This document shows positions 1 through 14,480 of a stretch of DNA of 42,886 nt, piece after piece. How positions within the stretch are numbered: the stretch's first letter is position 1; every line of letters begins with the position of its first letter. Position numbers and translations under genes: made by a program. The notes below the pieces were generated by a model that saw only the letters and a list, made by a program, of their open reading frames with translations, did not search any database and had not been told where the DNA came from. The DNA comes from a virus: positions 1 to 42,886 of IMG/VR virus record IMGVR_UViG_3300040808_000801; one strand, given 5' to 3'.

Positions 1-308
1 GTGTGTGAGACTTCAATGCCCAACTCACTTGCTCGACGACAGCAACGATCACTAGCAGTTGCACCGTAGAACTCTTGTGGTTCAACACCTGCGAGTCTGC
101 TCACAATCACATAGTATTCGCAAAAAGGATCATGTGCTGCTGCAACAGTCGCAACTCCGGGTATGTGTTCTACTATTTCCCATGTGTGTATAGTGTTGAG
201 TGTGGGCGTGAGTGTGTAGTCCCAGTCTGTGTTAGGGGGTGCATCCACAGTGCCTTCCAGTGTCCACACACTGTTGAGTAGCTGTTGGGTTGTGCAGTAA
301 AACGTCAT
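1..308 (-). CDS. Conserved phage protein of unknown function, partial (cut by window edge)
   Basis: The minus strand reads open from ATG at 308 to the window edge, giving the first 102 residues. It begins MTFYCTTQQLL and continues through PPNTDWDY, an AAAHDPFCEYYVI segment and EFYGATASDRCCRRASELGI. This matches the 5399-5833 protein segment by segment (PPTQDWDY, YAAHSPFAEFYLI, ETYYGPNAQTKVFARAKEMGL), so the two are paralogs. I do not recognise a function. The paralog sits next to tail-fibre genes, so a fibre-related or chaperone role is possible but unproven. A late-type element (GCTAAATA, 314-321) ends 5 nt before the ATG and no Shine-Dalgarno sequence is visible. The C-terminus lies outside the window. 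Confidence 0.75.
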   Translation of the reverse strand, partial: MTFYCTTQQLLNSVWTLEGTVDAPPNTDWDYTLTPTLNTIHTWEIVEHIPGVATVAAAHDPFCEYYVIVSRLAGVEPQEFYGATASDRCCRRASELGIEVSH

Positions 309-364: not shown

Positions 365-529
365 ATGATAAGAACTTATGATATTGTTCTCGCGGTAGTG
401 TGTGCATGGCTGATGTTGACCGTTTTCTTCACAGGGGGTCTAGTTGGCGGTGCGCTTGCGTATGGTCTATGGATACTCTGGGCTGACTACTACTGTGTAT
501 GGAGAAGGACACAAGAACATGGCAAATAA
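365..529 (+). CDS. Small membrane protein, 54 aa
   Basis: ATG at 365 to TAA at 527-529 gives MIRTYDIVLA..., ending TQEHGK. Residues about 7-40 are almost wholly hydrophobic or glycine (VLAVVCAWLMLTVFF, then GGLVGGALAYGLWILWA), predicting one long or two short membrane segments, followed by a basic tail (CVWRRTQEHGK). The stop region overlaps the next start (ATG at 519) by 11 nt, which supports real coupled translation. It is the first gene of the plus-strand oxygenase operon. No Shine-Dalgarno sequence is seen; a late-like element lies 5 nt upstream. Function unknown; an inner-membrane role is only inferred from hydrophobicity. Confidence 0.55.
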   Translation: MIRTYDIVLAVVCAWLMLTVFFTGGLVGGALAYGLWILWADYYCVWRRTQEHGK

Positions 530-1142
530 CATCAATGGGTACTTCGTTGGTGAAATTGAACCCACAACAACCATAGCAGGTTGCATTTCAATATACGAAC
601 GTGCATGGCCTAACCCTGCGCAAACAGTAGCTAGAATAGAACACGAGTGTGCAGACCCTGATAACTTGGTCAGCTGGCAACGTGCAGAAACCATAGGCGG
701 TGGCGTACGTCAATCAAGACGCACCAATCTAAATCTAGGTATTACCTATCTAGCTGACGTTGACGACAATGCTGTTATGCAGAACGCACACAATCAAATG
801 AACATGCTGCTCAACGCAACAGTTGAACCCTACTGTAAACGCATGGGCATAGAAGGTGATACACGCTACGAAGACTACAGTCTACTCAAATATTCAGGTG
901 GACAAAACTACGGAGCGCACCACGATGGCAGTGGAGCAAGCACAAGAATTGTGAGTGCTATCTGTTATCTCAACGACGACTACGAAGGTGGTGAACTTGA
1001 GTTTCCACACTTTGGTGTAAAGATCAAACCACAAGCAGGTATGCTGATAGTGTTCCCCAGTAACTTTGCATATGCACACATTGCACATCCAGTTACTGAC
1101 GGTACCAAGTATGCTATAGTAACTTGGATCAATGAAGTATGA
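519..1142 (+). CDS. 2OG-Fe(II) oxygenase, prolyl-4-hydroxylase type
   Basis: A 207-residue 2-oxoglutarate/Fe(II)-dependent dioxygenase of the P4H superfamily. The iron ligands are readable as H134-x-D136 (in GAHHDGSG) and H187 (in AYAHIAHPVTDG), with K197 in the place of the 2OG-binding Lys/Arg. The core has the usual AICYLND...GGELEFP...AGMLIVFPS progression. I start it at 519 because AAGGA lies 9 nt upstream and the frame in front overlaps the small membrane gene. It is the first oxygenase of the array and ends in an ATGA overlap with the next gene. Its base composition is clearly richer in G+C than the later array members (32 of 60 bases at 601-660). The substrate is unknown. Confidence 0.85.
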   Translation: MANNINGYFVGEIEPTTTIAGCISIYERAWPNPAQTVARIEHECADPDNLVSWQRAETIGGGVRQSRRTNLNLGITYLADVDDNAVMQNAHNQMNMLLNATVEPYCKRMGIEGDTRYEDYSLLKYSGGQNYGAHHDGSGASTRIVSAICYLNDDYEGGELEFPHFGVKIKPQAGMLIVFPSNFAYAHIAHPVTDGTKYAIVTWINEV

Positions 1143-1732
1143 TACACATAAATGAAATCTTTCCACTGTTTGTTGCTACCCATACCAGCGAAGTTGATCT
1201 AGTTCCTATACTAGCAGCGTGTCTTGGGATGGAACAACAGCTTGATGGTGTAACCAAAAGCAATGTAGGTGGATGGCAGTCACCGGAGATAGAACTTACT
1301 GCTGCACCGTTCGATGTATTGATACCTGACATATTGGGCAGTCTACAGGGCGTTGTGAACTACGGCAAATTAAATAATGGGTACACACTAATGAACAGCT
1401 GGATCAACGTCAACAGAGCTGCATGTAATAATGCTCCGCATGTTCATCCTGGCTCAACAATTAGCGGAGTTGTGTATATCAATGTACCCAAAGACAGCGG
1501 CAGGATACGTTTTTTAAATCCTGCTAGGACAGCAATCGCAAGCTACATCGATTTACCACAACACCGAGGGGACGTACCACAGGGTCCATTTAGTGAAGTA
1601 TGGGAGTACGAGCCAGTTGCAGGAGAGATACTGTTGTTTCCTAGTTGGCTGGAACACCTAGTAGAAAACAATAATAATGCTGACAGCGAACCTAGAGTAA
1701 GCATTGCATTTAACATCAAGGTACACGAATGA
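1139..1732 (+). CDS. Putative 2OG-Fe(II) oxygenase, TIGR02466-like (array member 2)
   Basis: A 197-residue protein with the pattern of the putative 2OG-Fe(II) oxygenase family TIGR02466: an N-terminal INEIFPLFVA, then PHVHPGSTISGVVYINVP (H101, H103), AGEILLFPSWLEHLVEN (H173) and PRVSIAFN (R186). The first metal motif is HxH rather than the usual HxD/E, which recurs in the three sister genes. It is joined to both neighbours by ATGA overlaps, so it is translated as part of the array. The substrate is unknown; peptide, nucleobase or small-molecule hydroxylation are all possible. Confidence 0.75.
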   Translation: MIHINEIFPLFVATHTSEVDLVPILAACLGMEQQLDGVTKSNVGGWQSPEIELTAAPFDVLIPDILGSLQGVVNYGKLNNGYTLMNSWINVNRAACNNAPHVHPGSTISGVVYINVPKDSGRIRFLNPARTAIASYIDLPQHRGDVPQGPFSEVWEYEPVAGEILLFPSWLEHLVENNNNADSEPRVSIAFNIKVHE

Positions 1733-2325
1733 AAAGCAACACTTGGAATTTATTTCCTACACCCGTAACTAGATTTACTGAGGTGTTTACTGCACAGCAA
1801 CTAGATGATATCAATCAATATCTATCTACGCTGCGTAGTGGGCCGCACAGTGCTATAGACGGTGACGGTGTTAGTTCACATGATGAAACTACAGATATTA
1901 TAAAAAGTATTACTTCTAGTGTACCGGGATGTCAAACCTTTGGTAATACTATACAGCATATGCTAAATGAATATACACACACCTATGGTCTTGACCCAGT
2001 TGAAGTAACCAACAGTTGGTACAGCGTACAAAGACCAGGAAGCAGACTTGTAACTCATCTACATGCAAACAGTATTGTAAGTTGTGTAATCTATACACAA
2101 ACAGACAACAACAGTAGTAAAATATACTTTGATAATCCAAACAAAATGGTAGCCTACTGTAATCAAACATCGCATCCTACAGACTATAACTTTGAATACT
2201 TTTATATACAGCCCGAAGTTGGAGACGTACTAATGTTCCCCAGTTGGTTAGCACACGGCAGTAGGAGCGAACACAATCAATCACAACAAAGAACTATACT
2301 AAGTTTTAACGCGAGGTACAAGTGA
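1729..2325 (+). CDS. Putative 2OG-Fe(II) oxygenase, TIGR02466-like (array member 3)
   Basis: A 198-residue sister of the preceding gene. It starts NLFPTPVTRF and keeps VTHLHANSIVSCVIY (H110, H112), GDVLMFPSWLAHGS (H176) and QQRTILSFN (R188). The HxH form of the metal motif is again present. The start is set by the ATGA overlap at 1729-1732. The stop overlaps the next ATG (TGATG at 2323-2327). Divergence from its neighbours is high although the architecture is the same, so these are old duplicates or separate acquisitions rather than fresh copies. Confidence 0.75.
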   Translation: MKSNTWNLFPTPVTRFTEVFTAQQLDDINQYLSTLRSGPHSAIDGDGVSSHDETTDIIKSITSSVPGCQTFGNTIQHMLNEYTHTYGLDPVEVTNSWYSVQRPGSRLVTHLHANSIVSCVIYTQTDNNSSKIYFDNPNKMVAYCNQTSHPTDYNFEYFYIQPEVGDVLMFPSWLAHGSRSEHNQSQQRTILSFNARYK

Positions 2326-3092
2326 TGTTTAAGAAAAAAGATATCGTTCTAGATTGCTACACATATGTACCTTGGGTTTATGACCATGCTAAAATAAACT
2401 ATGGTAACAAATATATGCCACAATGGTGGAAGGATACACCTAGCAGAACAGAAGATGGCAACGATACAATACGAGTGTGTCAAGGGCTGATTGATTATTA
2501 CAAATCAGGAATAGTTATTCCCAGTTGGTTTGAAATTGACTTTCATATTAAATCTAAATATAATACCAAAGAGAATGCATACACTTGGGAAGCAAGTAAC
2601 CCTGCTGTAAACACTGATGGTAGTCATTCATCTGATCAATGGGGACTGTACAGTGAAGATAACGGTAATAATTTAAAATTTGATTCTCCGTGGATATTTA
2701 AAACTCAAGAGCTTGTGCAATTTACTTGGACACAACCTACTTGGAGTATGCGTGATAAAGTAGACCAAATAACAGTTTTGCCTGCTGTAGTAGACTACAA
2801 GTATCAACACTGGACTAATATAAATTGGTTAGTTTTAAATAGAGACGAACCTAAAGACATTAATATTCCTTCATTAACTCCTATGGTTATAATGCATCCT
2901 ATGACTGATCGCAATGTTATAATTAAGAATCATCTCATTTCAAAAGAACAATGGAGTCGAATCGGTGAAGGAAGTGAATACATGTTTTTAAAAGGAAACA
3001 AAAATATCTACCAAAGTAAGAAACGTATAATTGATAACGTTGAAAAGATAGAAGGATGTCCGTACATGAGTAAAGGAAAATTAGATGAATAA
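2325..3092 (+). CDS. Conserved marine-phage protein of unknown function in the oxygenase array
   Basis: A 255-residue protein (start taken at the ATG at 2325 in TGATG; a GTG at 2322 is also possible). It contains YMPQWWKDTPSR near residue 32, a GLIDYYKSGIVIPSW segment near residue 55, an acidic/aromatic middle, and late motifs FTWTQPTWSMR, LPAVVDYKYQH and a PMVIMHPM segment. I know this pattern (WWKD.P, CPG.xD(Y/F), VP.W, W..LPGV.D) from conserved proteins of marine T4-like phages; no activity is established to my knowledge. It has no iron-binding triad, so it is the only non-oxygenase enclosed in the array and may act on, or present, the same substrate. Confidence 0.7.
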   Translation: MFKKKDIVLDCYTYVPWVYDHAKINYGNKYMPQWWKDTPSRTEDGNDTIRVCQGLIDYYKSGIVIPSWFEIDFHIKSKYNTKENAYTWEASNPAVNTDGSHSSDQWGLYSEDNGNNLKFDSPWIFKTQELVQFTWTQPTWSMRDKVDQITVLPAVVDYKYQHWTNINWLVLNRDEPKDINIPSLTPMVIMHPMTDRNVIIKNHLISKEQWSRIGEGSEYMFLKGNKNIYQSKKRIIDNVEKIEGCPYMSKGKLDE

Positions 3093-3684
3093 AAAATTTG
3101 CCGACTTAGGTTACTGTGTTGTAAAGAATGCAATAACACCCGAACTTCGAGACTTTATAACTCAATACACATTCTTTGATGAAATGCAAAACGAATCTAA
3201 AGATGATATTCAAGTTCCAAATGCATTTAGCAAGTACGCTGATCCTGCAATGGAAACAGTGTTAACAACTTTATTACCTACTATGGAAAAAGAAACAGGA
3301 CTCGAACTAGACCCAACATATTCTTATTATAGAATTTATTACCCTGGAGATAGATTAGAAAAACATAAGGATAGACCGAGTTGTGAAATATCATGTACGC
3401 TATGTTTCAACTACAACTATGAAAATTATGAATGGCCTATCTATATGGAAGGTGAAGGCATTGTTTTAGAACCCGGTGATATGGTTATATACAAAGGTAT
3501 GGATCTAGAGCACTGGCGTAATACATTTGATATCAAAGACGATGATGCATGGCATGTGCAAGGATTTTTTCATTACGTAAACAAAAAGGGTTCGTGCGCC
3601 GAATGGAAATGGGACAAGCGCAATAGTATTGGATCATTAAACAAACAAACAACTACGCCCAGTTATATAGAGTATACAAAATGA
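3085..3684 (+). CDS. 2OG-Fe(II) oxygenase-like protein (array member 5)
   Basis: A 199-residue protein that starts with a phytanoyl-dioxygenase-like opening (ADLGYCVVKNAITPELRDF). The iron site reads H94-x-D96 (LEKHKDRPSCEI) and H143 with R145 (DLEHWRN), after EPGDMVIYKGMD. It therefore has the conventional HxD...H triad, unlike the four HxH members of the array. It overlaps the preceding gene by 8 nt and the following one by ATGA. The C-terminal tail (from about residue 165) is polar and probably flexible. The substrate is unknown. Confidence 0.75.
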   Translation: MNKKFADLGYCVVKNAITPELRDFITQYTFFDEMQNESKDDIQVPNAFSKYADPAMETVLTTLLPTMEKETGLELDPTYSYYRIYYPGDRLEKHKDRPSCEISCTLCFNYNYENYEWPIYMEGEGIVLEPGDMVIYKGMDLEHWRNTFDIKDDDAWHVQGFFHYVNKKGSCAEWKWDKRNSIGSLNKQTTTPSYIEYTK

Positions 3685-4307
3685 ATATTGAATTAATTTT
3701 TCCTACTGCAATAGCTGTTGTAGATAACGATGTATTCGATGATCATCCAGCACTTTTAGATCTCGATTATAATGTTAATAAGGATAGTTCTAACGGAATG
3801 TTTGAACAGACCACAGATACATATGTACTAGATAATCATGTCCCAAATCTAAGAAATTGGATACAACAACAATTAGATAATTTTTCAAAGTATTCCTTGT
3901 CAACTGACCAAAAATTAAAATTTACACAGAGTTGGTGTTTAAAACATAATGATACAAGACAAGAAGTATTTCCACATTCACATCCTAATAGTATTATTAG
4001 CGGCGCCTACTATGTAGCAGCCGACGAAGATAGTGCTAAACTAAAATTTCATAGGACAGGTGTTTCAACGTATCCAAGTATACAATGGAAAATGGATCCT
4101 AACAAGTCAAAAGATGCTCCGTGGAACTGGGACTGGCAGAAAGTTTCTGTACACACAGGACGTCTAGTCTTGTTCCCTTCACAACTTACGCACTCGGTTG
4201 AAAGTGAAATGCACAACAGCGGAATACGGTGTGTATTAAGTTTTAACACATGGTTTGAAGGCAGTATTGGATCTGAACATTTATTAAATAAGTTAGGCCC
4301 GCTATGA
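3681..4307 (+). CDS. Putative 2OG-Fe(II) oxygenase, TIGR02466-like (array member 6)
   Basis: A 208-residue protein with the family opening MNIELIFPTAIAVVD, the metal motif FPHSHPNSIISGAYYV (H99, H101), GRLVLFPSQLTHSVES (H171) and GIRCVLSFN (R183). It is the clearest TIGR02466 match in the array. HxH replaces HxD. It is coupled at both ends by ATGA overlaps (3681-3684, 4304-4307). The codon positions are markedly more AT-rich than in the first array genes. Confidence 0.8.
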   Translation: MNIELIFPTAIAVVDNDVFDDHPALLDLDYNVNKDSSNGMFEQTTDTYVLDNHVPNLRNWIQQQLDNFSKYSLSTDQKLKFTQSWCLKHNDTRQEVFPHSHPNSIISGAYYVAADEDSAKLKFHRTGVSTYPSIQWKMDPNKSKDAPWNWDWQKVSVHTGRLVLFPSQLTHSVESEMHNSGIRCVLSFNTWFEGSIGSEHLLNKLGPL

Positions 4308-4918
4308 TTGAACAATGGTTTCCTACATTAATATATTATGATTTTTTAGATAAAATTGATAATGAATCTTTAGCCAAACGTGCTTATCAACTACGCGATG
4401 AATTGAATAAAGATGTTCACACGCAATGGAACTGCGATACATGGAATAGTCTCAATACAAATCTTTATTTTAAAGATGATGATACTGATAATGTCATAGA
4501 AAACTTAGTTAACACAACTATTGAACACACAGAAAAGTATGCAGAAGAATACGATGCAGATTTAGAAAACTATAAAATTACATGTACAGATTTTTGGTTT
4601 AATATTGCACAACCAACGAACTACCAAGAATATCATCAGCATCCAAACAATCATTTTAGTGCTGTTTACTATGTAGACGCACAACCTAATTCGGGTAACA
4701 TTAGATTTAAAAGTATAGATAGTATTGCAACAGGTAATACTATACCAACAAAGGTTCCTCTTGAAAGAATATCTGGTTCAACAGAAACATGTTTTTATGA
4801 ACCACAGCCTAGCAAACTATTAATCTTTAAATCTAATCTACTGCATATGGTAGAAAAGAATCTTAGTGATAGTGATAGAATTAGTGTAGCAATGAATTTT
4901 AGAATGGAGCCAAAATGA
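4304..4918 (+). CDS. Putative 2OG-Fe(II) oxygenase, TIGR02466-like (array member 7)
   Basis: A 204-residue protein beginning MIEQWFPTLIYYDF. It carries YQEYHQHPNNHFSAVYYV (H111, H113), SKLLIFKSNLLHMVEKN (H181) and DRISVAMNF (R192). The domain order and spacing match the other TIGR02466-type members. It is joined by ATGA overlaps on both sides. The central region is long and acidic (DDDTDN, EEYDADLENY). The function is inferred from the fold only. Confidence 0.75.
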   Translation: MIEQWFPTLIYYDFLDKIDNESLAKRAYQLRDELNKDVHTQWNCDTWNSLNTNLYFKDDDTDNVIENLVNTTIEHTEKYAEEYDADLENYKITCTDFWFNIAQPTNYQEYHQHPNNHFSAVYYVDAQPNSGNIRFKSIDSIATGNTIPTKVPLERISGSTETCFYEPQPSKLLIFKSNLLHMVEKNLSDSDRISVAMNFRMEPK

Positions 4919-5430
4919 TAGAAGTAATTGACAACTGTGTGTCACAAGAGCATCTACATCATATGCAAAATATTATGCTTAATAATTCGTTTCCGTGGTT
5001 TTTTAGTAATACCAAAGTAGGAAATGATTTGCCTTCACAGCAAGATAATTATGATTGTCAATTTATACATTTATTTTATCACAACATGAAACCAAGTAGC
5101 AATTACGGAGATCTTATTGAACCCGTACTAGATATTTTGCAACCAAGTGCTTTGGTTAGGATAAAAGCAAATCTAACTACTTGTGCAGACAAAGTTTATA
5201 ACTATCCTCCACATGTGGACTTTTTTAATTTTAATGGAAAAACAGCAATATTCTATCTAAACACAAATAATGGATATACAGAATTTGCTTCTGGTGAAAA
5301 AGTTGAATCTGTTGAAAATAGACTTGTAATATTTGACGGAAATATGGAACATTCAGGTACTACACATACTGATACTAAAACAAGAGCTGTAATTAATTTT
5401 AACTATTATACCTGGTTAAGGGCTGAGTGA
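4915..5430 (+). CDS. 2OG-Fe(II) oxygenase-like protein, last of the array
   Basis: A 171-residue protein with a conventional triad: H100-x-D102 (YPPHVDFFNF), H146 (GNMEHSGTT) and R157 (KTRAVINFN). The SVENRLVIFDGNMEHSG segment is typical of 2OG-Fe(II) proteins found in T4-like marine phages. The start is the ATGA overlap at 4915-4918. Its 3' end runs 32 nt into the convergent minus-strand gene at 5399-5833, and no terminator lies between them. Locally it is AT-rich (20 of 60 bases G+C at 4921-4980). Confidence 0.75.
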   Translation: MIEVIDNCVSQEHLHHMQNIMLNNSFPWFFSNTKVGNDLPSQQDNYDCQFIHLFYHNMKPSSNYGDLIEPVLDILQPSALVRIKANLTTCADKVYNYPPHVDFFNFNGKTAIFYLNTNNGYTEFASGEKVESVENRLVIFDGNMEHSGTTHTDTKTRAVINFNYYTWLRAE

Positions 5431-5833
5431 CATTGTCGTGTAACCATAAGTCATCTGGGTTCGCCCATTGATCATATGTTTTTAGATTTAGTCCCATTTC
5501 TTTAGCACGAGCAAAAACTTTGGTTTGTGCGTTTGGACCGTAGTATGTTTCTGTAAGATGTTTATCGTGGTAAGTAGGATCAGAAAAATCCCAGCCTGTA
5601 GTAATTAAATAAAACTCAGCAAAAGGACTGTGTGCTGCATATATACCAATCCCCCCGCTTGCTTCAACTAAACATTCCCATATATCAACATCGTCTATGC
5701 GCATTTCACGCTTGTAGTCCCAGTCTTGTGTTGGAGGAATATACGGAGTATCGCCATCCATCCATTTGGATTCAAACAGCTCATCGCCGCCGGCTTCAAC
5801 TAATATATTATATGTTGTTTTATACTGTGGCAC
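5399..5833 (-). CDS. Conserved phage protein of unknown function, paralog of the left-edge gene
   Basis: A 144-residue protein. The start is GTG at 5833, supported by alignment with the paralog at the left window edge, which begins at the same point (M-x-x-Y-x-TT). Recognisable blocks are ILVEAGGDELFESKW, PPTQDWDYKREMRIDD, GGIGIYAAHSPFAEFYLI, YYGPNAQTKVFARAKEMG and a WANPDDLWLHDN tail. It lies 4 nt downstream of the glycine-rich adhesin gene, so it is probably the last gene of the fibre operon. A role in fibre assembly or host interaction is inferred from position only. No Shine-Dalgarno sequence is visible, so translation may be coupled to the preceding stop. Confidence 0.75.
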   Translation of the reverse strand: MPQYKTTYNILVEAGGDELFESKWMDGDTPYIPPTQDWDYKREMRIDDVDIWECLVEASGGIGIYAAHSPFAEFYLITTGWDFSDPTYHDKHLTETYYGPNAQTKVFARAKEMGLNLKTYDQWANPDDLWLHDNVTQPLTRYNS

Positions 5834-5837
5834 TGTA

Positions 5838-6764
5838 TTAGTTTGGATAGCGAATAATTACAACACCTGGTCCGCCTTGACCGCTAGGATCGCTGCCGCC
5901 CTGATGACTTACGCCACCACCACCTCCGCCGTAGTTATTCTGGCCTGCTTGTCCTTGCTTAGGTGAATAACCGCCTTGACCGCCACCACCGCGTCCCGGT
6001 CCGCCGCTGCCGCTTCGCGGGCCACCGCCCCCTCCGCCGCCGCCACCGCGTGATACGGAAGATCCTGAAATTGAACTTGATCTACCACTGCCGCCATGTT
6101 GTGTACTATACGCAGGACCAGCATTGCCGCCTGCTCCACCACCGCCAGCACCGCGCCAGCTTTGGCCATTTTGTCCGCCATCATATCCTTGGCCGCCAAC
6201 ATTACTGCCGCCGTAGCGATATCCATATCGAGCATCGCCGCCGCCGCCACCTGAGCCTCCAGGTTGTCCATTGTCGGTGTAGCCGCCACCACCGCCACCG
6301 CCGGTGGTTGGTGTACTATTAAACGCTGAGGGGTCTCCTCTTACACCAGTGTTGCCACTGCTTCCTTGACGTTGAGAGCCGCCCTGGCCAACAGTAACCG
6401 GAAATGGACCATCGCCTACTACTTGATCAGCTAGGGTTCCGCTGAGGTATCCGCCGCCCCCGCCTCCGCCTGCGCCGCCTTGGTCACTACCTTCAGCGCC
6501 TCCGGAGCCTCCACCTGCGATGATAATGTATTCTAAATCTAGTTCAGTAACTAGCTGCATTGCTTCTTTATAATTATTTTTGTACTTGTTTTTTAGGTTA
6601 AACGCTAATTCTGAATCACCTACAGTTGTAAATGCATGTACAGTATATCCGCCTGCGGTGTAAATTTGATCTCCACCTTTAACATCAAAGATGTCATGTA
6701 TTTTTGGTGCTTCATTATTTTGTTGAACACCTTTACCTTTTCTAATACTTTTAATAAATGGCAT
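5838..6764 (-). CDS. Glycine-rich tail adhesin / receptor-binding protein
   Basis: A 308-residue protein. A short N-terminal part (GDQIYTAGGYTVHAFTTVGDSELAFN) leads to LEYIIIAGGGSGG at about residue 77, then over 200 residues dominated by runs of glycine interspersed with Ser, Asn, Gln, Tyr and Pro. It closes with GPGVVIIRYPN. This IIAGGG...VVIIRY frame is typical of the glycine-rich adhesins and fibre tips of T-even-like phages (compare T2-type gp38), which decide host recognition at the distal fibre end. The preceding gene ends with the same GGYNIHTFNTGG-type segment. Shine-Dalgarno AAGGA lies before ATG 6764. The repetitive GGC/CCG DNA is prone to length change, so assembly errors here are possible. 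Confidence 0.75.
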   Translation of the reverse strand: MPFIKSIRKGKGVQQNNEAPKIHDIFDVKGGDQIYTAGGYTVHAFTTVGDSELAFNLKNKYKNNYKEAMQLVTELDLEYIIIAGGGSGGAEGSDQGGAGGGGGGGYLSGTLADQVVGDGPFPVTVGQGGSQRQGSSGNTGVRGDPSAFNSTPTTGGGGGGGYTDNGQPGGSGGGGGDARYGYRYGGSNVGGQGYDGGQNGQSWRGAGGGGAGGNAGPAYSTQHGGSGRSSSISGSSVSRGGGGGGGGGPRSGSGGPGRGGGGQGGYSPKQGQAGQNNYGGGGGGVSHQGGSDPSGQGGPGVVIIRYPN

Positions 6765-9042: not shown

Positions 9043-9801
9043 CTATATTGTATTACCTTTGCGTATAAATGTCAAGTTTTTTATTATGTGATCTATCCAT
9101 AAATCTATGCCGTCGCCGTTTGGATGATTGTCTCCTGCATATCCAAAATATATTTCTTGATATTTCTCTTGTATTTTATGTTTATGAGTAAGATTATTAA
9201 TTATAATTTTATTAGTTTTATTGCTGATTGTTCCTAATGCGTGTGATATATTGTAAGTGTCTGATATTGAATTTAATTTAGTATACGAGTCATCTAGTAA
9301 TCTATAATAACTATCACAAACTGGAATCACGTGCTTGTACTTTTTTAATATCTTTAAATTTAAATCAGAACATCCACCAGTAATATATAGATTTAAGTTG
9401 TGTGTTTTAGCAAGTAGATTTAAATTAAAATAGAAAAAATCTACTAATGTATTAACATAGGATTGAAAATTATGTTCTTTAACTATGCTATAAATTGTAT
9501 CGTGGCTATCTGGTTGATATGCTAGAAATTGTAGTACATCGCGCATTGGCTCCGTTTGAATAACTAAAACATTTTCTAGTTTTTTATTGATTAGTTCTAT
9601 GTGTATTCTTCTTATTGATTCAACATTAGATTTTCCGCCGCCGGAATGATTTCTTACAGCAGGTACATGTCTTTTTAGAGACCGAGTAAAGTAATCATCA
9701 CCGTCGTTGCCATGGCCCCATTCGCGTGATCCGTCGGGCCGTGTCCATCTTCCGCAGCCCCAACTATCTCCAAATACAGTAATGTTATCTAGGCTAGACA
9801 A
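9043..9801 (-). CDS. SGNH/GDSL-hydrolase-like protein
   Basis: A 252-residue protein opening with ITVFGDSWGCGRW (block I, with the nucleophile Ser in GDS), then a GGGKSN block at about residue 54 that could supply the oxyanion Gly, VLVIQTEPMRDVL in the middle, and GYAGDNHPNGDGIDLW near the end as the His block. The His block reads DNHPN rather than DxxHP, so catalysis is plausible but not certain. The start is TTG at 9801: GGAGGGG lies 8-9 nt upstream and this frame begins just before the conserved block. It overlaps the carbamoyltransferase stop by 8 nt. Possible roles are deacylation or deacetylation of surface glycans. Confidence 0.6.
   Translation of the reverse strand: MSSLDNITVFGDSWGCGRWTRPDGSREWGHGNDGDDYFTRSLKRHVPAVRNHSGGGKSNVESIRRIHIELINKKLENVLVIQTEPMRDVLQFLAYQPDSHDTIYSIVKEHNFQSYVNTLVDFFYFNLNLLAKTHNLNLYITGGCSDLNLKILKKYKHVIPVCDSYYRLLDDSYTKLNSISDTYNISHALGTISNKTNKIIINNLTHKHKIQEKYQEIYFGYAGDNHPNGDGIDLWIDHIIKNLTFIRKGNTI
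9047..9075 (-). promoter_or_regulatory. Early sigma70-type promoter for gp41
   Basis: TTGACA, 17 bp, TACAAT on the minus strand (-35 at 9070-9075, -10 at 9047-9052). The -10 ends 5 nt before ATG 9041, and no Shine-Dalgarno sequence is present. It lies inside the end of the SGNH-like gene. Confidence 0.75.
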
Positions 9802-10753
9802 ACCATTTCCCCTCCAAGTTTACCTTTGTTTTTGTTTTTGCTAATACAGCACCAATGCAGCTACCAGGGTCTCCTGGGTTTTGAGGTACATGAATAGTAT
9901 TCCATTGTGGACGAATTTTATCTACAGCTTGACGATTAAGTGCGCCACCCCCTGCTAATGCTAAGTTTGGGCTTTTAGTTTTCCATTGAGCCCATGCACT
10001 AAGACCACTAACTGCTTCTTCAAAAACTTTTTGGGTAGTTGCTGCAAGTCTACCCATAGCTTCATTATTGGTAGCTTCGGGTAAAAACCAATTACACCCT
10101 CGGTGTAGATTAGTCTTAAACTTCCAGGCTGGGTTACTAGCTGTGGGGATTTTTAGTATAATCTCGGCCATCATCGCACTTCTATAGTACTCAGGGTCAT
10201 AATCTTTACCCATGCCAGCTATCATATATTCGTCTCTTTGTGCAACGCCACCAACACGTTGAGTCATTGAAGAGTAAAATAAACCCGGGCTATGCGGATA
10301 ACTTTGACTGTAAATCTTCTTTAGTTTATTGTTCTTTCCATGCCAAATAGTCAGTGTTTCAAATTCGCCGATACTATCTAAGCATATTACAGCACAGTTG
10401 TCATGCGGCTGAGTGTAATAGGCATATGCTGCATGTGAATGGTGATGTTGAGTGTACTGTATTGGACAAACAATATTGTGTTCATAAAGATAAGAAGCAA
10501 TATCGTTCTCTTTGCCTAACCAACCTTGACCTGCTCGCCATTGTCTAATAGTTTTTAAGAAAGGACGTTCGTACCAAATAATTTCTTTTGGTGCTCCAAA
10601 TCTAAGTGCCTTTTTAATTAGTTTTCTATTTAGATGGGGATCGTTAGGTACACCACTAAAATCTTTAGCAAGTGCTGCCCATAACAAATTTTCATTTCTA
10701 AATACAGCTAGACTTGCATCATGGCTGTTGCCAACTATTCCCCAAATAATCAT
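9794..10753 (-). CDS. NodU/CmcH-type carbamoyltransferase, lacking the C-terminal domain
   Basis: A 319-residue protein with the Kae1/actin-like N-terminal domain of O-carbamoyltransferases: IVGNSHDASLAVF at the start, the metal-binding HHHSHAAYAYY segment, CLDSIGEFETLTIWHG, and a late NLALAGGGALNRQAVDKIR block followed by PGDPGSCIGAVLA. Family members transfer carbamoyl from carbamoyl phosphate to hydroxyls of sugars or antibiotics. The usual length is roughly 550-600 residues; here the second domain is missing, without a frameshift or leftover downstream. The ATG overlaps the stop of the 44-residue gene (ATGA). A role in modifying envelope or nucleotide sugars is inferred. Confidence 0.8.
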   Translation of the reverse strand: MIIWGIVGNSHDASLAVFRNENLLWAALAKDFSGVPNDPHLNRKLIKKALRFGAPKEIIWYERPFLKTIRQWRAGQGWLGKENDIASYLYEHNIVCPIQYTQHHHSHAAYAYYTQPHDNCAVICLDSIGEFETLTIWHGKNNKLKKIYSQSYPHSPGLFYSSMTQRVGGVAQRDEYMIAGMGKDYDPEYYRSAMMAEIILKIPTASNPAWKFKTNLHRGCNWFLPEATNNEAMGRLAATTQKVFEEAVSGLSAWAQWKTKSPNLALAGGGALNRQAVDKIRPQWNTIHVPQNPGDPGSCIGAVLAKTKTKVNLEGKWFV

Positions 10754-13083: not shown

Positions 13084-13633
13084 AATCTTCGCATATTAAA
13101 TTCATATGTACTACAACAGCCATTGCATAAGAAATAGCATGGGCTTTCTTAAAGAAGTAACTATTGTCAGTTGGTTTAATCCAAACTTCCTTCATTACCT
13201 TTTCCCAAGTTTCTCCGACTAAGTGCCGTTTGGCCGGCCGTATCATCGCTAGTACTGCTGCTAGTTGTTCTATTGTTCTTGGACGCATTGTCTTTAATAT
13301 AGTTCCATGTCCTGCGACGTGAAATACTAGTCTGCTGAAATCGTCGTGTTCGAGGAGTTCCCATTGTGGTTCCTTAGTCATTAGTTGTTGAAGATGTTCT
13401 TCATTTGTAACATCGTTGTATATACTTACATTTAGAAAATCTAATTTAAAATATCCGCGTTCTTCAGCAGTCTTATGTTCAATTGTTGATAAATTATCAA
13501 CAGGATTATGCGGTATTTCTGTTGCATACACTCCTGTATTATGTTTTTTGCCTGTATTTAATTTTGCCACACGATGCGTTAATTTTTGTAGAATTACATC
13601 TCTGTCTGCAAAATCTATATCAATATCAGGCAA
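13076..13633 (-). CDS. Miniature DNA polymerase III alpha (DnaE)-like palm protein
   Basis: A 185-residue protein that matches the core of bacterial DnaE only. PDIDIDFADRD at residues 2-11 fits the palm motif with two catalytic Asp (D5, D7). YFKLDFLNVS gives the third (D65). HVAGHGTILKTMRPRTIEQL then AMIRP (107-133) resembles the GM...LKP..FEDL...RPGP region of the fingers. FFKKAHAISYAMAV (160-173) resembles FNKSHAAAYA. The PHP, beta-binding and OB domains are all absent; full DnaE is over 1,100 residues. The start is TTG at 13633 with GGAG 7 nt upstream, overlapping the deformylase stop by 8 nt. Whether it polymerises DNA or has been reused is unknown. Confidence 0.7.
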   Translation of the reverse strand: MPDIDIDFADRDVILQKLTHRVAKLNTGKKHNTGVYATEIPHNPVDNLSTIEHKTAEERGYFKLDFLNVSIYNDVTNEEHLQQLMTKEPQWELLEHDDFSRLVFHVAGHGTILKTMRPRTIEQLAAVLAMIRPAKRHLVGETWEKVMKEVWIKPTDNSYFFKKAHAISYAMAVVVHMNLICEDFT

Positions 13634-14123
13634 CTTGTTTCTCCATCTTACGTGCTTTTTTCTTAGCCATGTCCCATTTTAATTTACTACATCTATCTTT
13701 CATAGTAATACCCAAACAATGATCCAATTCGTGTAGATAAACTCTAGCACTATATCCTGTAATTTTAACCGTTTGTTTCTTTAAAAATTCGTCATAGTAT
13801 TCTGCAAGTATTTCAGCTGGGCGTTTTACTTTTACAAACATACCAGGAAAACTTAAACAACCTTCAATCTCTGTACTAACTTCTTCTGTATATTGTAACA
13901 CAGTTGGATTAATATGTAAAGTAACATTTTCAGCCTTGTCGCCCATTGTAAACACTTTATAATCCAAGCCAACTTGTGATGCTGTTAACCCTATGCCGTT
14001 GTTTAACAACATAGCTACAGCCATATCTTTTTTTAGACGCAACGGATCAAACTGTGGTTCTTCAATATTTACATCTTGTAATTCTTTACTTAGAATGGGA
14101 TCTGGATAGTATACTAACTCCAT
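13626..14123 (-). CDS. def: Peptide deformylase
   Basis: A 165-residue protein with all three catalytic motifs: GIGLTASQ at 43-50 (consensus GxGLAAxQ with Ala to Thr), EGCLS at 87-91 supplying the metal-binding Cys, and HELDH at 131-135. It removes the formyl group from the initiator Met of nascent proteins. Unlike the short phage deformylases that stop soon after HExDH, it keeps about 30 further residues rich in Lys. Marine T4-like phages often carry def, which is thought to help translate phage or short-lived host proteins. It sits in an operon with cupin and zinc-finger genes. Shine-Dalgarno AGAGGAAA precedes ATG 14123. Confidence 0.92.
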   Translation of the reverse strand: MELVYYPDPILSKELQDVNIEEPQFDPLRLKKDMAVAMLLNNGIGLTASQVGLDYKVFTMGDKAENVTLHINPTVLQYTEEVSTEIEGCLSFPGMFVKVKRPAEILAEYYDEFLKKQTVKITGYSARVYLHELDHCLGITMKDRCSKLKWDMAKKKARKMEKQVA

Positions 14124-14126
14124 AAT

Positions 14127-14480
14127 TTATTTCCTCTTTGTAGATGTGCCGCTGGTGCGACGAACAATATCATCGTGATTAAATTCTGCCCAGTACAGTT
14201 CAAAAGCAACACCATCCTCTAAACCTTCAAACTGATGCACCTTACCGGGCTTAACTTGCGTAAAGTCTCCAGCTTCGAGAATAGTTTCATCAACTAGTCC
14301 TTGATCATCTTGCCAAACACGGACAATCATTTTGCCCGATTCAACAAAGAATCCGTTCCACTTAAACTGATGTTCGTGTTCTGAACATTTATATCCTGCT
14401 TTGTATTCAATACGATGAAACTCTAATACACCGTTGGCATGTACCAATTCTGTTTGGCCCCATATTTTACCAGCTTTCAT
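14127..14480 (-). CDS. Cupin-domain protein
   Basis: A 117-residue single-domain cupin. Motif 1 is SEHEHQFKWNGFFVESGKMIV, with His residues near 33-35 and a downstream Gly. Motif 2 is FTQVKPGKVHQFEGLEDG. This pattern is common in sugar isomerases, epimerase-like and mannose-pyrophosphorylase cupins. It overlaps the zinc-finger gene by ATGA. The neighbourhood includes kdsA, kdsB and a second cupin, so a sugar-related role is likely but not shown. The C-terminal tail (VRRTSGTSTKRK) is basic. Confidence 0.75.
   Translation of the reverse strand: MKAGKIWGQTELVHANGVLEFHRIEYKAGYKCSEHEHQFKWNGFFVESGKMIVRVWQDDQGLVDETILEAGDFTQVKPGKVHQFEGLEDGVAFELYWAEFNHDDIVRRTSGTSTKRK

Follow-up and report, generated by a model that had tools for sequence, protein, structure and literature searches.

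Marine phages have few unexplained genes more common than those for oxygenases dependent on Fe(II) and 2-oxoglutarate (2OG), which are usually classed as auxiliary metabolism. Up to five 2OG genes per genome have been reported in cyanophages (PMC3037559), ten in S-CREM1 (PMC9964418) and 24 in S-SCSM1 (PMC9602691), and in pelagiphages such genes are colocated with genes labelled ‘ferrochelatase’ (PMC9599517). In the T4-like cyanophages syn9 (gp45–gp54), S-CREM1 (ORF72–80) and S-SCSM1, they form overlapping rows of divergent oxygenases of the PF13640 and PF13759 families. Here, we analysed a 42,886-nucleotide stretch of viral DNA (IMG/VR record IMGVR_UViG_3300040808_000801, positions 1 to 42,886; hereafter, the window), in which nine plus-strand open reading frames (ORFs) at 365–5430, denoted g0–g8, include a similar row of seven oxygenase genes (Table 1). 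This array is real, selectively maintained and exchangeable, a jumbo-phage version of the theme known from cyanophages and pelagiphages.

The resemblance to the cyanophage sets extends to the company the genes keep. A member of the g5 family closes the row in syn9 and S-CREM1, with relatives of g4, the gene enclosed in the window's row, and tryptophan halogenases in the neighbourhood: syn9 carries two halogenases, g4 and then eight oxygenase-type genes including g5, plus a JmjC protein, only part of this set being annotated as oxygenases, and S-CREM1 combines a halogenase and g4 with a row of oxygenases, the last being g5. Rows of 5–8 oxygenases are also found in uncultured phages and in Mosig, where six lie between tail-fibre and neck genes. 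Thus, the original prediction, made from the window alone, was too strong in treating seven oxygenases in a row as exceptional, given that published cyanophages carry 10–24 2OG genes and that syn9 and S-CREM1 have comparable rows. Unlike the cyanophage sets, the array in the window lies on the opposite strand, between the two paralogous genes f0 and f1; it lacks a JmjC member, shows no halogenase and belongs to a jumbo myovirus. The HTVC023P-type pelagiphages (PMC9599517) likewise have g1-type and g5 genes close together and near Gly-rich tail genes, but with 2–4 oxygenases rather than seven. The terminase of the window is closest to those of jumbo phages, namely PA5oct and its relatives (52%), followed by Phosso and GAP32, and the record containing L027, where a shorter array occupies the equivalent place, is 357,559 bases long; these relationships assign the window, as a fragment, to a marine-type jumbo myovirus and not to a cyanophage.

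Six array members (g1, g2, g3, g6, g7 and g8) are identified as oxygenases by profile searches and g5 by its predicted fold, so that the seven oxygenase-like genes originally proposed are all accounted for. The proteins g2, g3, g6 and g7 match PF13759 (E values from 1e-15 to 6e-23). All four had been assigned to the TIGR02466 type; all are over the PF13759 cut-off, whereas the TIGR02466 cut-off (62.5 bits) is passed by g2, g3 and g7 but not by g6, at 56.2 bits. The match of g1 to PF13640 is strong (E = 3.6e-17; 63.5 bits against a cut-off of 27) and that of g8 just above the same cut-off (27.7 bits). The three members expected to carry an HxD..H triad, g1, g5 and g8, do so: these metal ligands are 100% conserved among homologues of g1 and g8 and invariant in 30 homologues of g5. 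In g2, g3, g6 and g7, the HxH..H residues and the Arg are 93–100% conserved among the homologues of each, and the replacement of HxD by HxH may create a three-histidine metal site. For the metal ligands by themselves, conservation is 95–100% in every family. Thus, the members match oxygenase profiles or the oxygenase fold and their metal ligands are conserved in homologues, the two points on which the original prediction hinged. Furthermore, comparison of the window with the independent contig L005, which carries all nine genes in identical order, reveals strongly purifying selection on g1–g8, with ratios of nonsynonymous to synonymous substitution rates (dN/dS) of 0.008–0.205. In a quick tree, the four PF13759 proteins encoded in the window are not monophyletic, each having relatives in different phages, which argues against local tandem duplication as the origin of the row and indicates that it was assembled from separate lineages.

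Two of the families involved carry misleading names. Ferrochelatase is the PHROGs name of the g5 family, phrog_2954, and many of the 156 phage records with a g5 match repeat it, although g5 has no Pfam match of any kind. An AlphaFold (AF2) model of g5 built from 30 sequences (predicted local distance difference test score, pLDDT, 91) has the double-stranded beta-helix fold; prolyl-4-hydroxylases (P4Hs) head its PDB matches, the best being that of P. putida (E = 4.6e-10), and 2OG oxygenases make up the 50 top matches listed. Together with the invariant HxD..H, this excludes the ferrochelatase assignment. The g8 family, phrog_274, is labelled DNA endonuclease V or DenV; however, g8 matches PF13640, as does the S-MbCM7 ‘DenV’ at a score under the cut-off, and neither matches a glycosylase model, so that this candidate function was also rejected. 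Both labels are wrong, and both families are 2OG-type oxygenases. The ‘ferrochelatase’ has been read as a metabolic gene in its own right that accompanies 2OG oxygenases (PMC9599517, PMC11561400), with a haem-iron reading for the pelagiphage gene in the former study and use of the label for seasonal viral communities in the latter; the haem-iron reading of the HTVC023P-type pair is unsupported by the g5 fold. Relabelling the two families alters the gene counts and ecological readings built on them. Among individual genes, the ‘ferrochelatases’ of L154–L168 have the fold and ligands of 2OG-type oxygenases, and cyanophage ‘DNA endonuclease V’ genes of phrog_274 (L090:5687-6178) match PF13640 and DUF6445, not a DNA glycosylase.

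Co-occurrence in related genomes, the comparison suggested along with the original prediction, reveals a recurrent core and a variable periphery. A g1-type gene lies directly upstream in 34 of 48 dereplicated g5 genes, for which array size ranges from 1 to 7, three reaching 7, and about 30 contigs share a fixed g4-g1-g5 order, typically with a small gene on one side and the gene for the virion protein phrog_3287 on the other. Domains of the g5 and PF13640 types are also joined in one protein, in phrog_3531, ACG-2014f and S-SCSM1, with further natural fusions at L160:7968-9056 and L167:8001-9362. Whereas L005 has the identical set, others have subsets: L027 encodes g1-g5-g7-g8 and another PF13759 protein between both f paralogues, L150 has g1-g5-g7-g8 beside f1, and L151 has that set plus one more oxygenase, with g7 orthologues present in the L027 and L150 arrays. 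The array and f1 have been exchanged as one unit, given the block of high identity to L005, which in 50-base windows has one sharp edge ahead of g1 and another at the end of f1. Synonymous divergence (dS) from L005 is 0.20–0.33 in g1–g8 as against 1.62 in a nearby helicase. By contrast, g0, found only in the window and L005, is 57% identical between them, which places it outside the exchanged cassette. The carbamoyltransferase region, 88–96% identical to L005 where the neighbouring helicase is not, represents a second exchanged block.

What the array modifies is suggested by its structural kin and its neighbours. The nearest PDB match of g1 is the Bacillus P4H (E = 1.3e-9, residues 48–205), and the solved structures closest to it are protein hydroxylases, namely P4H, PKHD, LH3 and EGLN1. 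The Bacillus and P. putida P4Hs and chlorovirus vCPH, itself a virus-encoded protein hydroxylase, share the fold and the HxD..H ligands with g1 and g5, although overall the sequences are remote. Tryptophan halogenases (PF04820) are encoded in or beside the arrays of L151, L098, syn9 (two), S-CREM1, Sf-CH11, Sf-FR1 and Sf-FP1, and in syn9, S-CREM1, Sf-FR1 and Sf-FP1 the order is Gly-rich tail genes, halogenase, g4, oxygenases, g5. A peptide-pattern scan for bacterial relatives of the phage tryptophan halogenase found none. Gly-rich genes adjoin or lie near the arrays of L027, L150, L151, L095, L098, syn9, S-CREM1, S-MbCM6, Sf-CH11 and HTVC033P; array-adjacent Gly-rich or fibre genes occur in jumbo, T4-like and pelagiphage-type genomes, and 18 of 60 array-flanking genes encode phrog_3287. 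Like the tail-fibre tip adhesins of the T-even gp38 type, which contain poly-Gly stretches, the neighbour in the window, assigned by PF21722 and phrog_2295, is Gly-rich; a literature search found no modification of gp38-type adhesins and no paper on oxygenase-modified tail fibres. In 12 records with automated PF21722 hits, picked for g5 or g8, 43 of 115 oxygenase genes lie at most 10 kb from a PF21722 gene, whereas circular shifts give an expectation of 18.9 (P = 4e-4; combined P = 7e-4 for g5 alone), P values that are indicative, many of the records being related, with their independence overstated, and the comparison being made without a control gene family.

Thus, because of the prolyl hydroxylase kinship of g1 and g5, the halogenases of related arrays and the tail-tip neighbours, we tentatively propose, at a little short of even probability, that the array is a modular protein-modifying set acting on the phage's own Gly-rich tail tip or a neighbouring fibre. 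Of the original idea of a multistep or multi-substrate modification system, the general part stands, the members being divergent, with catalytic residues kept, under selection, exchanged together as a cassette and found repeatedly as modules; of the substrates then listed, the evidence points to a protein, a nucleobase seems less probable, and nothing specific speaks for a glycan. We infer the enzyme activity, the substrate, the role of g4 and the benefit to the phage. In the proposed mechanism, g1 and g5 would be the recurrent, prolyl-hydroxylase-like core pair, and the other oxygenases, the TIGR02466-type enzymes and g8, would come and go from phage to phage; Fe(II), O2 and 2-oxoglutarate would be spent on hydroxylating several side chains of the adhesin encoded at 5838–6764 or of a related fibre protein. 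In related phages, the halogenase would act on tryptophan as well, and the outcome would be a receptor-binding surface with chemistry beyond the 20 amino acids. The protein g4 would serve as a non-catalytic partner.

Several observations, in addition to the relatedness of the records in the proximity comparison, weigh against this proposal. At least 4 g5 loci (S-P4, ACG-2014f, S-PM2 and S-RIM32) are not tail-linked; neither the window nor the L027 record showed a halogenase, and phage tryptophan halogenases are usually assumed to use free tryptophan. The L150 array has only four oxygenases, so that most members are dispensable. Finally, in an alignment inspected by eye, the g5 site expected, beyond the distal His, to hold the usual 2OG-binding Arg or Lys is variable, with an invariant Gln159 nearby, which leaves the co-substrate of g5 uncertain. 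A peptide-pattern scan for bacterial relatives of the phage tryptophan halogenase found none.

Kinship to protein hydroxylases does not reveal which protein is hydroxylated, and the closest structural match of g5, the P. putida P4H, was solved in complex with EF-Tu (4iw3). The enzymes might therefore act not on the virion but on a protein or surface peptide of the host, for instance, a receptor modified against superinfection or a ribosomal or translation protein, in which case variable membership could follow hosts. We consider this unlikely because the array is repeatedly found beside tail-tip and virion genes and, in several isolates, among structural genes for neck and fibre. Somewhat less likely still, in our judgement, is that the array makes or decorates a small molecule, a peptide natural product or a surface glycan. 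The combination of 2OG oxygenases with a flavin halogenase does resemble natural-product tailoring sets, the window encodes a carbamoyltransferase (9794–10753) and HTVC023P has a glycosyltransferase after the array region; nevertheless, the arrays themselves contain no recognised peptide synthetase, precursor peptide or glycosyltransferase, and structurally g1 and g5 are nearest to protein hydroxylases.

The enclosed gene g4, a conserved gene as originally noted, belongs to phrog_7084 (E = 8.7e-11). Its AF2 model (pLDDT 77) has a beta-clip fold, with Foldseek matches to 2yzj (1.8e-4) and 2zdc (3.7e-4), a dCTP deaminase (DCD) and a dUTPase; the top matches are nearly all dUTPase or DCD, with TM-scores of just 0.3–0.6. 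The S-CREM1 member has been published as a triphosphate nucleotidohydrolase, in agreement on the fold. By eye, the family alignment keeps stretches like dUTPase motifs 3 and 4 but lacks the phosphate-binding PRSG motif, so that canonical dUTPase activity is unlikely and the candidate function of an active canonical dUTPase is unsupported. The fold of g4, the sub-threshold match of g1 to Tet_JBP (18.8 against 34.9 bits) and the overlap of g5 with a DNA methyltransferase gene in S-P4 could be taken to indicate hypermodification of DNA or nucleotides, with TET/JBP-like base oxidation and g4 as a nucleotide enzyme. This is, however, very unlikely, given the missing PRSG motif, the lack of a methyltransferase or glycosyltransferase in the array and the poor fit of tryptophan halogenases and tail genes. 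In L007 and L008, the next gene after g4 is of the g1 type and overlaps it by 4 nucleotides, and at seven helicase-linked loci it comes after a TIGR02466 gene. A tblastn search of annotated phages with the g4 protein of the window gave no match, g4 being found there only by profile, and an alignment-based scan for distant g4 loci failed because these are too divergent. At L014:12088-15275, L028 and L032, a g4-family gene after a helicase is followed by nitrilase-like and SGNH-type hydrolase-like genes (by eye). The Caulobacter vibrioides control genome matches phrog_7084, PF13759, PF13640 and PF04820, so that a cellular counterpart may exist.

For cyanophages, oxygenases that consume or sense 2-oxoglutarate, shifting the nitrogen or energy metabolism of the host, have been proposed (PMC3037559, PMC9602691), and genomes with many 2OG genes, 3–19 in the records of the proximity comparison, could be read in that way. 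One enzyme would be enough to drain 2OG, however, whereas seven divergent members of separate origin with a conserved pairing point to distinct substrates, and by its terminase the phage of the window belongs to the PA5oct/GAP32 jumbo group, not to the cyanophages; we regard auxiliary metabolism as improbable here.

The successive overlaps from g0 to g8 are 11, 4, 4, 4, 8, 4, 4 and 4 nucleotides, so that the 4–8 nucleotides first described hold for seven of the eight junctions, the g0/g1 overlap being longer. Nearly all long ORFs to the right of the array are on the minus strand, which agrees with the description of the array as opposite to most of the window. Judging from the overlaps, g0–g8 are probably translated as one coupled unit, and the inner genes mostly show little trace of a ribosome-binding site ahead of them, as fits coupled translation. 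Promoter and terminator scans gave signals at or below shuffled background, and a search with a defence-system library returned generic 2OG models only. Among the flanking genes, f0 is full-length in L005 (5638–6156), and f1 is kept at this position in L005, L027, L150 and L151; an f1-like domain in syn9 gp46, suggested by eye, was not supported. A cupin/JmjC-like protein encoded near arrays at L125:9880-10428 (phrog_29157), with one similar by eye at L098:4942-5532, is a possible further member.

Table 1. Features in and around the oxygenase array of the window
Feature	Position	Strand	Description
f0	3–308	-	Truncated f1 paralogue, left of array; BLASTP f0-f1 E = 4e-15
g0	365–529	+	Small protein, 54 amino acids; hydrophobic stretch, likely membrane (read from sequence)
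Exchanged block	510–5780		g1 to f1; 93–97% identity to L005 in most 50-base windows
g1	519–1142	+	2OG-Fe(II) oxygenase, prolyl-4-hydroxylase type; H134xD136..H187
g2	1139–1732	+	TIGR02466/PF13759 oxygenase; H101xH103..H173..R186; PF13759 6e-23, TIGR02466 84.4 bits
g3	1729–2325	+	TIGR02466/PF13759 oxygenase; H110xH112..H176..R188; PF13759 2e-20, TIGR02466 68 bits
g4	2322–3092	+	Beta-clip (dUTPase/dCTP-deaminase fold) protein, phrog_7084; GTG start
g5	3085–3684	+	2OG-type oxygenase, phrog_2954 (2e-47); H94xD96..H143
g6	3681–4307	+	PF13759 oxygenase (1e-15); H99xH101..H171..R183
g7	4304–4918	+	TIGR02466/PF13759 oxygenase, TIGR02466 89.4 bits; H111xH113..H181..R192
g8	4915–5430	+	2OG-Fe(II) oxygenase; PF13640 5.6e-6, phrog_274 1.7e-50; H100xD102..H146..R157
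f1	5399–5833	-	Conserved protein; separates the array from the fibre gene, convergent with g8
Gly-rich gene	5838–6764	-	Tail-tip/adhesin-like; PF21722 2.2e-13; phrog_2295 6e-36; proposed substrate
ORF	9043–9801		252 amino acids, no Pfam/PHROG match; flanked by helicase and carbamoyltransferase genes; not in L005
Carbamoyltransferase	9794–10753		N-terminal domain gene
Peptide deformylase region	13626–14480		Peptide deformylase beside a gene with a PHROG cysteine-dioxygenase match

We found no earlier description of the pairing of g1 and g5 as conserved across jumbo, T4-like and pelagiphage lineages, of g4 and tryptophan halogenases sharing the array neighbourhood, of arrays lying near Gly-rich tail-tip genes above chance, or of the array moving as a cassette. 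It is conceivable, although we hold it to be doubtful, that at least 3 marine phage lineages share an exchangeable module for post-translational modification that hydroxylates and halogenates Gly-rich tail adhesins, consisting of a prolyl-hydroxylase-like pair, variable TIGR02466-type enzymes, a beta-clip partner and, often, tryptophan halogenases. If so, such a module would extend the chemistry of receptor binding past the genetic code. For the 2OG oxygenases of marine phages, synteny offers a testable alternative to auxiliary metabolism, namely, modification of the tail adhesin.

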